DNA from: Hydrogenobacter sp. T-8 | GTDB lineage: Bacteria > Aquificota > Aquificia > Aquificales > Aquificaceae | Direction: 5' to 3' | DNA: 64,000 bases | NCBI RefSeq assembly: GCF_011006175.1 | Contig: NZ_CP048795.1 | Span: 1,054,001-1,118,000 of the forward strand | Shown here: positions 3,026 through 56,862 of the stretch, one piece after another | Position numbering within the stretch: position 1 is the first letter of the stretch | Layout: each line of letters starts with the position of its first letter | Translations under genes and position numbers: made by a program | The notes under the pieces: model-generated | Databases searched by the model: none | What the model saw: the letters and a program-made list of their open reading frames with translations, nothing else | Told to the model about the DNA's origin: nothing

Positions 3026-4368
3026 AGTATGTATTTGGAAAGCTCCACATCCTTTACTATACCTTCCAGCTTTGCCCTTACAAACCTTGCGTCTATGATT
3101 ATCCTCTGACCCGATAGCTCTGGTGCATTAAAGGATATGTCTTCAAGGAGCTTCTCCATTACCGTATGAAGCCTTCTTGCCCCTATGTTCTCAGTGCGAC
3201 TGTTGGCATCCTCTGCGATGCGTGCTATCTCCTCAAGGGCATCCTCTGTAAACTCAAGCTCAACTCCTTCTGTTTTGAGAAGCTCCGTATATTGCACTGT
3301 TAGGGCATTTTTTGGCTCTTTGAGTATTCTTACAAAGTCCTCTCTTGTGAGAGGGCTTAACTCAACCCTTATGGGAAACCTTCCCTGAAGCTCCGGCATG
3401 AGGTCTGAGGGCTTAGATATGTGAAAAGCACCCGCTGCGATGAAAAGTATATGGTCCGTTCTTACTGGTCCATACTTGGTCTTTACCACTGTTCCTTCTA
3501 CTATGGGAAGAAGGTCTCTTTGCACTCCTTCCCTTGACACTCCCGGACCAACACCCGGAGTTTTTACCGCAATCTTATCTATCTCGTCTATAAAGATTAT
3601 CCCAAAGTTCTCTGCTCTGCTTATGGCTTCTCTTGCTACCTCCTCTTGGTCTATGAGCTTTTCTGCTTCTTCTGATTCAAAAACCTGAAGGGCTTCTCTG
3701 ACTTTGAGCCTTCTTCTTTTCCTACCACCGCCAAGACCACCCAGCATGTTTCTAAGCTGTTCTTCAAGCTCCTCAAGACCTGGAGGTCCAGCTATACCTA
3801 TCACTGGAACGAACTTTTCCTGAACTTCAACCTCTATAACTCTGTCTTCTAATTCTCCTCTTCTTAGTTTTTCTCTTATTTCCTCCCTTTTACCTGCATC
3901 TTGTGGGCTTCTTATACCAAAGCTCAGCTGTTGAGGGACGAGGTAGTCAAGAAGTCTCTCTTCCGCAAGCCTTTTTGCTCTTTCTCTCACCTCTTGCATT
4001 TTCTCCTGTTTTACCATCTGGTAGGAGACCTCCACCAGCTCCCTTACCATAGACTCCACGTCCCTTCCCACATAACCTATCTCCGTATACTTTGTGGCTT
4101 CTACTTTGACAAAGGGAGCTTTTATAAGCTGTGCTATCCTGCGTGCTATTTCTGTCTTCCCCACTCCTGTGGGACCAATCATAAGGAGGTTCTTGGGTGC
4201 CACCTCGTCCCTTATGTGTTCTGGCAGTTTCTGTCTTCTCCATCTGTTTCTGAGGGCTATGGCAACTGCCCTTTTGGCACTCTCCTGTCCCACAATATAC
4301 TTGTCCAGCTCTTCCACGATCCTCTTAGGTGTTAGCTCTTCAAGTAGGTCAGAAAGGTATTTCGTCAT
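3022..4368 (-). CDS. hslU: ATP-dependent protease ATPase subunit HslU
   Basis: AAA+ unfoldase that feeds substrates to the HslV peptidase. The Walker A motif GPTGVGKT lies near residues 66-73 and Walker B FIDEIDK near 260. Between them is the family-specific I domain, with a charged helical stretch. The pore-loop GYVGRD and the C-terminal SKYIL tail, which inserts into HslV pockets to activate it, are both present. Length (448) is typical. The partner hslV is not in the window. It overlaps the upstream hypothetical gene by 20 bases and the downstream one by 4. Confidence 0.95.
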
Positions 4369-4816
4369 CGTCCGCCTTCTCCCACTCTAAGGTTTCTATT
4401 TCAACATTTTTAACAAGATTGTCAAGGAAACTGTCAAGGTCTTCTGGAAAGGCTTCAGCCTTAAAGCTAAGAGGGAAAACCCTTTCCACCACCTCTATGG
4501 GGGGATTGCCTACACCGAGGGCTGGCTCAATAACCTTAGGTATGCGTCTTGAAGCCTCAAGACATGCCATTTTATATGCCTCAGAAAGTGCAGTTTCTAT
4601 ATCTGAGAACCTTGCCACCTCATCTCCATATTCATAGAGCACTATATCGTAGGCACTTTCCTTGAAGGCTTCCCAGTCATGCACTTGGACCACATATTCC
4701 CTACCCTCTAATTCCCTTGTCTCCACACAGCTTTTATCCTTGAGTTTAAAGGATATTATGTAAGCATCTACAAGGTATCTGTCCGCATAAACATCGGGGA
4801 AAAAATAAAATTCCAT
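4349..4816 (-). CDS. Conserved hypothetical protein upstream of hslU
   Basis: 155 residues, soluble, with several beta-strand-like segments in the first 70 residues and an acidic C-terminus. I see no catalytic motif and cannot name a family. The stop lies 20 bases inside hslU, so the two are one transcription unit. It starts 18 bases from the divergent tsaE start. There is no ribosome binding site, but a TATATT/TATTAT-like box lies 7-9 bases upstream of the ATG, suggesting a leaderless transcript. Confidence 0.6.
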
Positions 4817-4822
4817 AGTCTT

Positions 4823-4831
4823 TATAATATA
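4823..4831. promoter_or_regulatory. Overlapping divergent -10 elements between tsaE and the hslU operon
   Basis: Only 18 bases separate the two divergent genes. The plus strand reads TATAAT at 4823-4828, six bases before the TTG start of tsaE. The minus strand reads TATATT at 4831-4826 or TATTAT at 4829-4824, 7-9 bases before the ATG at 4816. Both genes would have essentially no 5' leader. The -35 regions would lie inside the opposite coding sequence and are not obvious. Confidence 0.5.
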
Positions 4832-4834
4832 GCA

Positions 4835-5263
4835 TTGGTGCGTGTATTTTCCAGCTCTGAAGAAGAAACCCTTAAGATTGGAGAATTGATAGGCAGAAAT
4901 CTAAGAGGTGCGGAAGTGATCTGCCTTATTGGTCCCCTTGGTGCGGGGAAGACTACACTAATAAGGGGTATAGCGAAAGGTATGGGTCTACTTGAAGGCT
5001 ACCAAGTGCGTAGCCCTACCTTTACTTTAATAAACGAGTATCCCACAGAAAAGGGTTTGCTAATACATGCAGACCTGTACAGGGTCAAAGAGCTGGACCT
5101 CGAGGAGTTTATGGGCAGGGGAGTTCTCGTGGTGGAGTGGGGAGAGGGCTTGCAGGTGTGCACCTGCACCATAAGGATAGAAATATGGCAAGAGGGTAGA
5201 GTTTTGGATTTCTCAGAATGTGAAGAACTTGCTACAGCCCTTTCGTATGGCAAAGCCTGTTGA
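4835..5263 (+). CDS. tsaE: tRNA t6A37 synthesis ATPase TsaE
   Basis: Small ATPase of the TsaB-TsaD-TsaE complex that makes N6-threonylcarbamoyladenosine at A37 of ANN-decoding tRNAs. The P-loop GPLGAGKTT is near residue 33. The family motif SPTFTLINEY follows, then HADLYR and VEWGE. Length (142) is typical. Start is TTG at 4835 or GTG at 4838; both fit a leaderless transcript from TATAAT at 4823. It converges on the phosphatase gene, overlapping it by about 30 bases. Confidence 0.92.
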   Translation: MVRVFSSSEEETLKIGELIGRNLRGAEVICLIGPLGAGKTTLIRGIAKGMGLLEGYQVRSPTFTLINEYPTEKGLLIHADLYRVKELDLEEFMGRGVLVVEWGEGLQVCTCTIRIEIWQEGRVLDFSECEELATALSYGKAC

Positions 5264-5861
5264 GATGTTTTAGCTCAAACCTCCCTGAGTTATACCTAAG
5301 ATGGGTTATTCCCGTGTTGTCCATGTGTATGTTCCAGAGGTTCTCAAGCCCAAGCCCAAGGGCAAGGCATGTGATGGCATGAAGCGTTCCACCGTGTGCC
5401 ACTATGAGAAGGTTTTCATAGTCTGACCTTAGCACATCCGCCATGAAGCTCTCCACCCTTTTTCTGAAGCTCTCCATGTTTTCCTGGGTGGGTAGGGGGT
5501 TTTTCAGAGGGTTTGAGAGCCACGCTCGGAAGGTTTCTCCTTCTTCTTCCATCAGCGTCCAGAAGTGTTTGCCCTCATAGTCTCCAAAGGATATCTCCCT
5601 GATGCGCTCATCTACCACCACTTCAAGCCCTAAAAGGTCCGCCACTGTGAGGGCTGTCTTGTATGCCCTTCTCTGGGGGGAGGAGTATATCACCTGTATT
5701 TTTTTATCAAGAAACTCCCGGGCTACCAGCCTTGCCTGAACAAAGCCAAGAGGCGTCAGGTCGCTATCTAACCTTCCTTGAAATATTCCCTTTTCGTTAT
5801 ACTCACTCTGAGCGTGACGTAGGAGGTATAGGTTTTTAAACCTTTTAAACAGGGTTGACAT
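5232..5861 (-). CDS. Histidine phosphatase / phosphoglycerate mutase family protein
   Basis: 209 residues of the histidine phosphatase superfamily. The catalytic LRHAQSEYN motif (RHG signature, His phospho-acceptor) is near the N-terminus, a GRLDSDLTPLG segment follows, and the second catalytic His lies in VAHGGTLHA. Such enzymes include cofactor-dependent phosphoglycerate mutases, alpha-ribazole phosphatases and phosphoserine phosphatases. Hydrogenobacter uses a PspA-type phosphoserine phosphatase of this superfamily, so that role is possible. The ATG at 5861 is preferred over the TTG at 5891, which lies upstream of the -10 box and adds residues with no counterpart. The glycolytic mutase role is covered by apgM in this window. 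Confidence 0.8.
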   Translation of the reverse strand: MSTLFKRFKNLYLLRHAQSEYNEKGIFQGRLDSDLTPLGFVQARLVAREFLDKKIQVIYSSPQRRAYKTALTVADLLGLEVVVDERIREISFGDYEGKHFWTLMEEEGETFRAWLSNPLKNPLPTQENMESFRKRVESFMADVLRSDYENLLIVAHGGTLHAITCLALGLGLENLWNIHMDNTGITHLRYNSGRFELKHLNRLCHTKGL

Positions 5862-54681: not shown

Positions 54682-56862
54682 TCACAAAAGCTTAAGCAAA
54701 GTTTCCAACTTCTCCGCATCAGTGAAGCTTGTAGACAAGTCCGCAGTAGGATGTCCATAAAGACCACAAAGGGTAACCACTTTGGTGTCCGTGTGCTTTT
54801 TCAAAAGCCTTATTACAAAGTCTGTCCTGTAGCAATGGACTCCCACAAGCACCGTTAGGTCATGTTTCCCGTGCAGGACCGCATGGTGTGGGTTTGGTGG
54901 GTCCATCTCCACCGCAGGGTCATACTTTTTGAGCTTTGGTCTGTAGTCAGGTAAGACCTTTACATTAAACTTCCCTACCTTTTCTATCAGTTCCCTTACA
55001 AGCCTTGCCTTATTTTGTAGCTCCTTATCTCCAAAGTCCCAAAAGAGCAAGGGTCCCACCACCAGCGTGGGTCTTTCCGACTCCCTTATCCACTTTGCAA
55101 GGGTTTCAAAGGCTTGCTGGTAGCTAAGGACTTCTTCTCCTATGGTTGCCTCCCCGAGGAAAACCTCCCTTTGCATAGAGGTTCTTGTCCTGTCCTCCTC
55201 AGGCGTCGGCACTGCCTTAGGCTTTTTGTAATAGGAGGGTTTAAAGTCCACAAGGTAAGGTGAAAAGTCAAAGCTAAGCTCCCTTTTGCCAACCTCCTCT
55301 TTCACATCTTCCTTTATGGAAAGGCTCTTGTAGAGGTCTTCTTTTATAAGGTCAAGCTCCACTGTAAACTCTCCATGATATGCCTTTTCTTCCTCTTCCA
55401 CTCCAAGACTGTAGCAAGTGGTCCCTACTATATCAAAAAGCACACCTTTTGCACCCTCTTGAGAAGCCCTTCTGAATATCTCATACCGCTTTTCGTAAAA
55501 CTCATAACAGCAATGTCCTATATAGGTGTATCCATTCTGAGCACACCAAAGGAGCGTATCCCTCAAAAGCTCAAAGGAGGTTATAGTAATAGGTATCATG
55601 CCCTTTTGGTAGGCAAGCCTGTAGGCATCTCCTACCGTGCAACCTCCACACTCCCCACAGTCATCAAGATGTCTGTAGTCGCACCAGCGAGGCTTAGCAC
55701 AGTAAGGCAGAAGCATAACCTTAGCCTTTTCTATGTTTTCTATAAGCCCACCACCTATGGACGCTATTATGTTATTCAGTCTTTTTTTTTCTATACCCAA
55801 GTCTATTCCCTCTGTTTTTCTGAGAGGAAAGAGCACCGCCTCTACAAGGTCTTCCACGGTGAGGTTTAGCCCTTCCCAGTCCCTTTGAGAGAAGAACTCC
55901 CTTATTCTCTTTTCCACATCCACTATGGGTGTGTGCTTTAGATAAGCCTCAAGGTCGTATATGAGCCTTTGAGGTCTCACGAAAAAGTCTCCGTTTATTA
56001 TTACCTGTTGGAGGACTTTGCTCTGCAGGTCCACCTTGGCGGAAACCCTAAAAGTCCCCCCAGGACATCTGTATATACCAAAGAGCATTTCACTATCTTC
56101 AGGTGCCTTCTTTACATGATAGACCCAATCATCACTTCTAAAATAGTCCCTTTTTTCTTCAAGCAGCCTTATCTCCTCCTGTGTGAGGTCTCCCCACTCA
56201 AATTCAATGTTGAGTTCTTCCCTTAGACCCTCAAGGAGTGCGGAAAAAACCTCTTCCTTGGGAGGCAAATATCCCAAAGCCCTCTTTACCCACTCAACCC
56301 TGTCCTCTGCGGATTTTATACCCTTTGAGGTGAGCTTTTCCACAGGAATCTGCAATGACTTTAGCATCCTTTCCACGTTAAAGTCCATAAGCACTGTTCC
56401 TTGATATAGGAAAGCTCTGCCTTCAAAAACTCCACCTGTGCCAGATATCTTTCTGCCCTCCACCTCTATGTCATTTCTTGGTCTAAACTCCGCCCTTATT
56501 CCAAGTTTTTGAAGTCCCTTTGCCACACCGGTGCATATTTTCCTTGTAAGCTCTTCGTAGCTAAGGTTTCCAAGCTGGTCGGTGGTGGCTATAACCTCCC
56601 ACCCTATCTGCGTTTCGTCAAAGTATATGGCACCACCGCCTGTTATCCTTCTTCCTACCTCTATGCCCTCTCTTTGTGTATATTCAAGCCTTACCTCTTG
56701 CTCCACAGCTTGATGAAAGCCCACAAGCACACACTCAGGTTTAAACTGCAAAAACCTTATAGTGGGTGGAATTTTGCCCTCGGACATTAAGTCCAGCATT
56801 ATCCTATCAAGTGCTATGTTCTCATAGTGAGGTCTTTGACCTGTATACAAAACTCGCCACAT
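54682..56862 (-). CDS. Lipoate-protein ligase fused to DUF116 and a CdhB-like domain
   Basis: 726 residues in three parts. Residues 1-240 are an LplA-type ligase with RRITGGGAIYFD and the adenylate Lys in GRKISGTGG (K138); 240-330 look like the accessory lipoate-ligase C-terminal domain. Residues about 345-500 match DUF116, with Cys at 388, 394, 402, 405, 408 and again 440, 451, 452, a probable metal or Fe-S site. Residues about 575-726 resemble the Rossmann-like epsilon (CdhB) subunit of CO dehydrogenase. Attachment of octanoate or lipoate to a carrier protein is the likely core role; Aquificaceae use lipoate in glycine cleavage and in the sulfur-oxidising sHdr system. The fusion's purpose is unknown. 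AAAGGAGG precedes the ATG. Confidence 0.8.
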   Translation of the reverse strand: MWRVLYTGQRPHYENIALDRIMLDLMSEGKIPPTIRFLQFKPECVLVGFHQAVEQEVRLEYTQREGIEVGRRITGGGAIYFDETQIGWEVIATTDQLGNLSYEELTRKICTGVAKGLQKLGIRAEFRPRNDIEVEGRKISGTGGVFEGRAFLYQGTVLMDFNVERMLKSLQIPVEKLTSKGIKSAEDRVEWVKRALGYLPPKEEVFSALLEGLREELNIEFEWGDLTQEEIRLLEEKRDYFRSDDWVYHVKKAPEDSEMLFGIYRCPGGTFRVSAKVDLQSKVLQQVIINGDFFVRPQRLIYDLEAYLKHTPIVDVEKRIREFFSQRDWEGLNLTVEDLVEAVLFPLRKTEGIDLGIEKKRLNNIIASIGGGLIENIEKAKVMLLPYCAKPRWCDYRHLDDCGECGGCTVGDAYRLAYQKGMIPITITSFELLRDTLLWCAQNGYTYIGHCCYEFYEKRYEIFRRASQEGAKGVLFDIVGTTCYSLGVEEEEKAYHGEFTVELDLIKEDLYKSLSIKEDVKEEVGKRELSFDFSPYLVDFKPSYYKKPKAVPTPEEDRTRTSMQREVFLGEATIGEEVLSYQQAFETLAKWIRESERPTLVVGPLLFWDFGDKELQNKARLVRELIEKVGKFNVKVLPDYRPKLKKYDPAVEMDPPNPHHAVLHGKHDLTVLVGVHCYRTDFVIRLLKKHTDTKVVTLCGLYGHPTADLSTSFTDAEKLETLLKLL

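Follow-up and report, generated by a model that had tools for sequence, protein, structure and literature searches.

A lipoate ligase fused to DUF116 and a delta-subunit-like domain in Aquificaceae, with a predicted part in the LipS1/LipS2 lipoate pathway

Domain layout of the fusion gene

Aquificaceae are thermophilic sulfur- and hydrogen-oxidising bacteria, and lipoate is a sulfur cofactor attached to proteins. Within the window, that is, the whole stretch of 64,000 nucleotides of Hydrogenobacter sp. T-8 that was analysed, we confirmed an open reading frame of 726 amino acids on the minus strand (genome coordinates 1108685-1110862) that joins a lipoate ligase to two further domains (Table 1). 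An earlier note made from the sequence alone had described a three-part fusion of LplA, DUF116 and a C-terminal domain, and all three parts were seen, but LplB is matched separately and thus the protein has four units. Profile searches placed Pfam LplA-B_cat at residues 12-213 (E 7.5e-44) and CO_dh (PF02552) at residues 572-721 (E 1.1e-32), with lower scores for the units in between. LplB was matched by NCBIfam NF053749 at residues 262-343 with 44.1 bits against a curated cut-off of 65, and weakly by Pfam Lip_prot_lig_C (PF10437) at residues 265-341, while DUF116 (PF01976, residues 356-427) reached 22.9 bits in hmmscan and 25.4 in the genome scan against a Pfam cut-off of 25. An AlphaFold model of the full-length protein had a mean pLDDT of 86.7; its domains are well folded, and confidence is low at residues 523-528 and 641-658.

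Table 1. Features of the fusion gene, in window coordinates.
Feature	Position	Strand	Evidence
Whole ORF, LplA-LplB-DUF116-PorD/ForD-like fusion, 726 aa	54682..56862	-	Profile searches, homologues
LplA catalytic domain, residues 12-213	56224..56829	-	Pfam; PDB ligases by sequence and fold; motif conservation
Codon of catalytic Lys138	56449..56451	-	Motif alignment
LplB accessory domain, residues 262-343	55834..56079	-	NF053749 below cut-off, PF10437 weak
DUF116 domain, residues 360-521	55300..55785	-	PF01976, alignment of 41 homologues, AF2 model
Conserved Cys C388, C394, C402, C405, C408, C451, C452, C483	55414..55701	-	41-sequence alignment
POR/OGOR delta-subunit-like (CO_dh/CdhB-type) domain, residues about 545-726	54685..55230	-	PF02552, PorD/ForD identity and motifs

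Lipoate and sHdr genes of the genome

That Aquificaceae carry the sHdr sulfur-oxidation pathway with a lipoate system, as stated in the earlier note, holds for this genome. Its sHdr cluster, at about 1022-1032 kb, encodes two DsrE, HdrC1, B1, A, Hyp, C2, B2, two LbpA and LipS1 (sHdrB1 at 1024070, lipS1 at 1030590) with OGOR genes directly upstream, and lipS2 and lipT are found at 1192453-1193472 and 1200944-1201969 of the same contig (G000:C1). Only lipS1 among the lipoate assembly genes therefore sits within the sHdr cluster, in contrast to published systems, where the sLpl(AB) gene lies inside the lipS1-lipT-lipS2/sHdr cluster. Beside the two LbpA the genome encodes three more GcvH-like proteins, as well as separate LipM-like and LplA/LipB-like proteins; the fusion is its sole protein in which LplA and LplB occur together, and its remaining LplA-family members are 263 and 222 amino acids long. 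No lipoate or sHdr pathway gene adjoins the fusion gene in the window, and across the genome the gene is unlinked to lipS1/lipS2 or to sHdr-lbpA. Likewise, we found no conserved neighbourhood of the fusion gene in an Aquifex-like genome (G046) or a Hydrogenobacter-like genome (G031). In the same Aquifex-like genome, several stop codons break the matched sHdrB1 frame (G046:C1:267033-268370).

The ligase half groups with sLpl(AB)

The ligase motifs that had been read from the sequence were all there, with RRITGGGA at residues 71-78, RPRNDIEV at residues 127-134 and an intact Lys138. Loss of Lys138 in orthologues had been named beforehand as grounds for abandoning the reading, and instead this residue, together with R71, R72, T74, GGG, N130 and D131, is kept in every one of the 44 Aquificaceae sequences from outside Hydrogenobaculum in which the site is covered. 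PDB ligases match the LplA domain by sequence as well, and a Foldseek search with the ligase half hit LplA structures over about 350 residues (E about 1e-22). From these intact motifs, ATP-dependent ligation is the predicted activity of the fusion.

Stand-alone sLpl(AB) proteins from proteobacterial sHdr-LbpA-LipS1 clusters share 43-48% identity with the fusion over LplA-LplB. The nearest of these stand-alone relatives are encoded directly 3' of lipS1 within sHdr-lbpA clusters, with one proteobacterial locus running sHdr genes, LbpA, LipS1, sLplAB, LipT and LipS2. In a maximum-likelihood tree, whose reading is limited by midpoint rooting and by the long branches of the proteobacterial LplA-DUF116 proteins, the fusion ligases joined the stand-alone Hydrogenobaculum sLplAB with support of 100/99, and these in turn joined the proteobacterial sLplAB with support of 100/99, with archaeal LplAB-DUF116 proteins basal and paraphyletic. 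Identity and tree placement thus uphold the claim of a specialised lipoate assembly ligase, and by homology this half of the protein falls in the sLpl(AB) clade, by which LbpA is lipoylated in sHdr sulfur oxidisers and members of which are reported to be LbpA-specific (PMC6067878). The fusion is like the sLpl(AB) of these oxidisers (PMC6067878, PMC10332631) in its LplA-LplB motifs, its clade and its LipS1/LipS2/LipT partners, whereas the published proteins possess neither DUF116 nor the delta-like domain.

Cysteines of DUF116 and their survival beside decayed ligases

Across 41 DUF116 sequences from several phyla, C388, C394, C402, C405, C408, C452 and C483 are invariant and C451 is kept in at least 90%, giving the pattern C-x5-C-x7-C-x2-C-x2-C ... 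CC ... C, which includes a CxxCxxC. All eight cysteine positions noted earlier (388, 394, 402, 405, 408, 440, 451 and 452) were exact, although C483 had been overlooked and conservation of C440 is confined to Aquificaceae. The domain is modelled as alternating alpha/beta (pLDDT 91.5), and we found no significant solved structural relative (best fold match E 0.02, best sequence match E 1.3). A published prediction for DUF116 proteins is that they bind metal, adopt a flavodoxin-like fold and transfer electrons (PMC5898192). The stand-alone archaeal DUF116/COG1852 proteins of that study resemble the DUF116 of the fusion in their CxxCxxC, many cysteines and alpha/beta fold but carry two transmembrane segments at the N-terminus, and that study did not connect them with lipoate. 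Most likely these cysteines bind an Fe-S centre, as we infer from their conservation, which alone is no proof.

Three lineages show what becomes of DUF116 when its ligase changes. The fused ligase of Hydrogenobaculum is missing its N-terminus together with the RRxTGGG motif, N130, D131 and K138, while the rest of the protein remains close to that of the window, with DUF116 88% and the delta-like domain 72% identical. This genus carries a stand-alone sLplAB together with the fusion whose ligase has decayed (G018:C1:878410-879420 and 1464567-1466543). Similarly, at a Thermoplasmatota locus (L210 of genome G173; 1193-2563 and 3661-5616), an intact LplAB without DUF116 adjoins a decayed LplA with DUF116, and in the latter the ligase bears N130T, D131W and K138R and all eight cysteines are kept. 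Proteobacteria show a milder version of the same division, with altered motifs in LplA-DUF116 and Lys138 kept. Because the cysteines of DUF116 persisted in these lineages when the ligase joined to them decayed or diverged, DUF116 is a separable component of the lipoate pathway and probably has its own job there, and we regard this separability as the strongest evidence for it. For the same reason it would not be a mere regulator of the ligase to which it is joined, and the suggestion that it serves redox control of lipoylation has to be given up in that form.

The C-terminal domain is related to PorD and ForD

The "CdhB-like" label given earlier to the C-terminal domain is borne out by the PF02552 match, but the delta-subunit family of POR and OGOR describes it more precisely. 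CODH/ACS epsilon (CdhB) shares PF02552 with the domain, and similarity to the solved archaeal epsilon subunit 1ytl is marginal; we rejected CdhB proper because the fusion scores 19.5 bits against the epsilon equivalog TIGR00315, far below the cut-off of 101.2, and because its closer relatives in this genome are PorD and ForD. These are the genome's two other strong PF02552 members, each encoded a short distance upstream of an alpha subunit gene within the POR or the OGOR cluster. The domain shares 25-34% identity with PorD/ForD over their whole length, N-terminal region included, along with the motifs DYRPK, GxHC and GH. We therefore conclude that the C-terminal domain is, on sequence grounds, a third paralogue of the PorD/ForD delta subunits of the Aquificota five-subunit pyruvate/2-oxoglutarate:ferredoxin oxidoreductases, which fix carbon in the cell. 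The role of PorD/ForD in Aquificota POR/OGOR has been described as intriguing and unexplained (PMC10052474), and we found no solved relative of ForD. Every Aquificota locus that we read has its PorD/ForD gene close upstream of the alpha gene, and this holds also for families and one genus that lack the fusion. Unlike these true delta genes, the fusion gene lies outside any POR/OGOR operon and not directly upstream of any alpha subunit gene, and its delta-like copy forms part of a larger protein.

The fusion tracks LipS1 and LipS2 rather than sHdr

Among 121 Aquificota genomes the fusion was found in 49, all of them Aquificaceae and representing every sampled genus of the family but one, a recurrence that argues against a chance architecture. 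In several genomes its two parts, LplAB and DUF116-delta, are encoded as neighbouring ORFs, which at one locus overlap by 4 bases. To relate it to its candidate partners we used the 42 Aquificaceae genomes with a completeness of 90% or more, which are related to one another so that the counts are not independent. The fusion was present in 39 of these, accompanied by LipS1 and LipS2 in 38 each, by sHdrB1 in 36 and by LipT in 35. The three genomes without it belong to a single genus and lack LipS1, LipS2 and LipT (0/3 each), yet sHdrB1 is present. In this genus (G040:C12:104001-120000; also G033 and G064) sHdr-LbpA occurs without LipS1, LipS2, LipT or the fusion ligase, and the sHdr-LbpA cluster of that locus stops without lipS1. 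The Aquificaceae fusion thus tracks the LipS1/LipS2 pathway and not sHdr as such, and strict co-occurrence of fusion and sHdr is rejected. Of the profile proposed in the earlier note, covariation with lipS1/S2 was found (38/39 versus 0/3), and covariation with sHdr itself was not.

Outside Aquificaceae, LplAB-DUF116 proteins of about 518-577 amino acids occur in 15 of 293 Thermoplasmatota genomes, 8 of 23 Hydrothermarchaeota genomes and also in Caldisericia. In Thermoplasmatota their gene is followed by lipT-lipS1-lipS2 and in Caldisericia by lipT, with lipT, lipS1 or lipS2 flanking it at eight loci from these two groups, and no Lip genes adjoined it in the Hydrothermarchaeota loci that we read. 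These archaeal and Caldisericia fusions, on which no paper was found in the literature searched, share domain order, cysteines and 40-52% ligase-half identity with the Aquificaceae protein but end without the C-terminal delta-like domain, and several are operonic with lipT/lipS1/lipS2. Among 24 proteobacterial genomes bearing sLpl(AB), 10 have an additional LplA-DUF116 with altered ligase motifs, and no DUF116 protein was found in the other 14, many of which are incomplete. In Thioalkalivibrio the LplA-DUF116 gene is divergent from lipS1.

Proposed role and its alternatives

We propose that the fusion acts as the sLpl(AB) of Aquificaceae, an octanoate/lipoate:protein ligase that would open the LipS1/LipS2 (LipT) lipoate pathway and whose main acceptor is likely LbpA of the sHdr system. 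Its DUF116 was presumably inherited from an archaeal-type LplAB-DUF116 protein and would be a flavodoxin-like domain whose Fe-S centre aids sulfur insertion by LipS1 and LipS2, through either low-potential electrons or renewal of the consumed cluster. The delta-like domain, in a guess from kinship, would dock on, or draw electrons from, the same ferredoxin/POR system. For these three parts taken together, we lean slightly towards acceptance. The auxiliary [4Fe-4S] clusters of LipS1/S2 supply the sulfur and, with a ferredoxin system in vitro, allow only about 1-1.5 turnovers (PMC9585515), and since they are consumed, renewal is needed in the cell. It is this turnover limit, combined with the predictions and the model for DUF116, that led us to propose a DUF116 Fe-S centre feeding or renewing LipS1/S2; a point against it is that LipT is present and thus an electron donor already exists. 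In its fullest form, DUF116 would be the missing cluster or sulfur renewer of LipS1/LipS2, the counterpart of NfuA for LipA, with the POR-delta paralogue linking it to the CO2-fixation ferredoxin pool, a version that we advance tentatively and consider rather unlikely.

Whether the ligase instead serves GcvH or other lipoyl domains generally, with its sHdr association incidental, has to be weighed against its clade. The three further GcvH-like proteins, the closer fit of the fusion to LipS1/S2 than to sHdr, and archaeal relatives in which sHdr is not required would all suit a general ligase; however, the fusion falls in a clade of reportedly LbpA-specific enzymes (PMC6067878), and the LipM-like and LplA/LipB-like proteins could serve GcvH, so that we hold this to be unlikely. 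More doubtful still is that the cysteines sense redox state or oxygen, turn the ligase to which they are fused on and off, and take no part in sulfur insertion. Although a ligase is fused to DUF116 in all cases that we read in detail, in Hydrogenobaculum and G173 that ligase is without Lys138 and a separate intact one is encoded in the same genome; a sensor of its own ligase is not expected to survive such a loss, and some Aquificaceae encode LplAB and DUF116-delta as two distinct, adjacent ORFs.

The C-terminal domain has a little under an even chance of being a plain structural or nucleotide-binding appendage with no functional link to POR/OGOR. Its identity to PorD/ForD is modest, as given above, and PorD/ForD are themselves without known function (PMC10052474), but the domain has retained their motifs and stayed with DUF116 after ligase loss in Hydrogenobaculum. 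That it stands in for LipT as electron donor is extremely improbable and was rejected: the lipT gene does lie outside the sHdr cluster, but a LipT orthologue is present in this genome and, as counted above, in most good fusion-bearing genomes. Under the preferred reading, a ligase with an Fe-S helper and a docking domain, the recurrent pathway partner, the near-invariant cysteines and the survival past ligase decay make DUF116 a concrete, testable candidate renewer. We found no published link between DUF116 and lipoate in the literature searched, and as far as that literature shows our proposal is unreported. The fusion points to an unrecognised helper of a lipoate pathway that was itself discovered recently and gives the delta-subunit family a first functional context outside POR/OGOR; if the renewer version is true, one protein spans ligation, support of sulfur insertion and electron supply.

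Observations at PorD/ForD loci

At four loci we found PorD/ForD also outside Aquificaceae within the order (family f2), whereas the subunits have been described as exclusive to Aquificaceae (PMC10052474). Around the PorD gene of the Hydrogenobacter genome lie three mutually alike ORFs (L109, 7361-7900, 8481-9020 and 8993-9559), which probably resemble the Uma2-like ORF described for the POR cluster of Aquifex.
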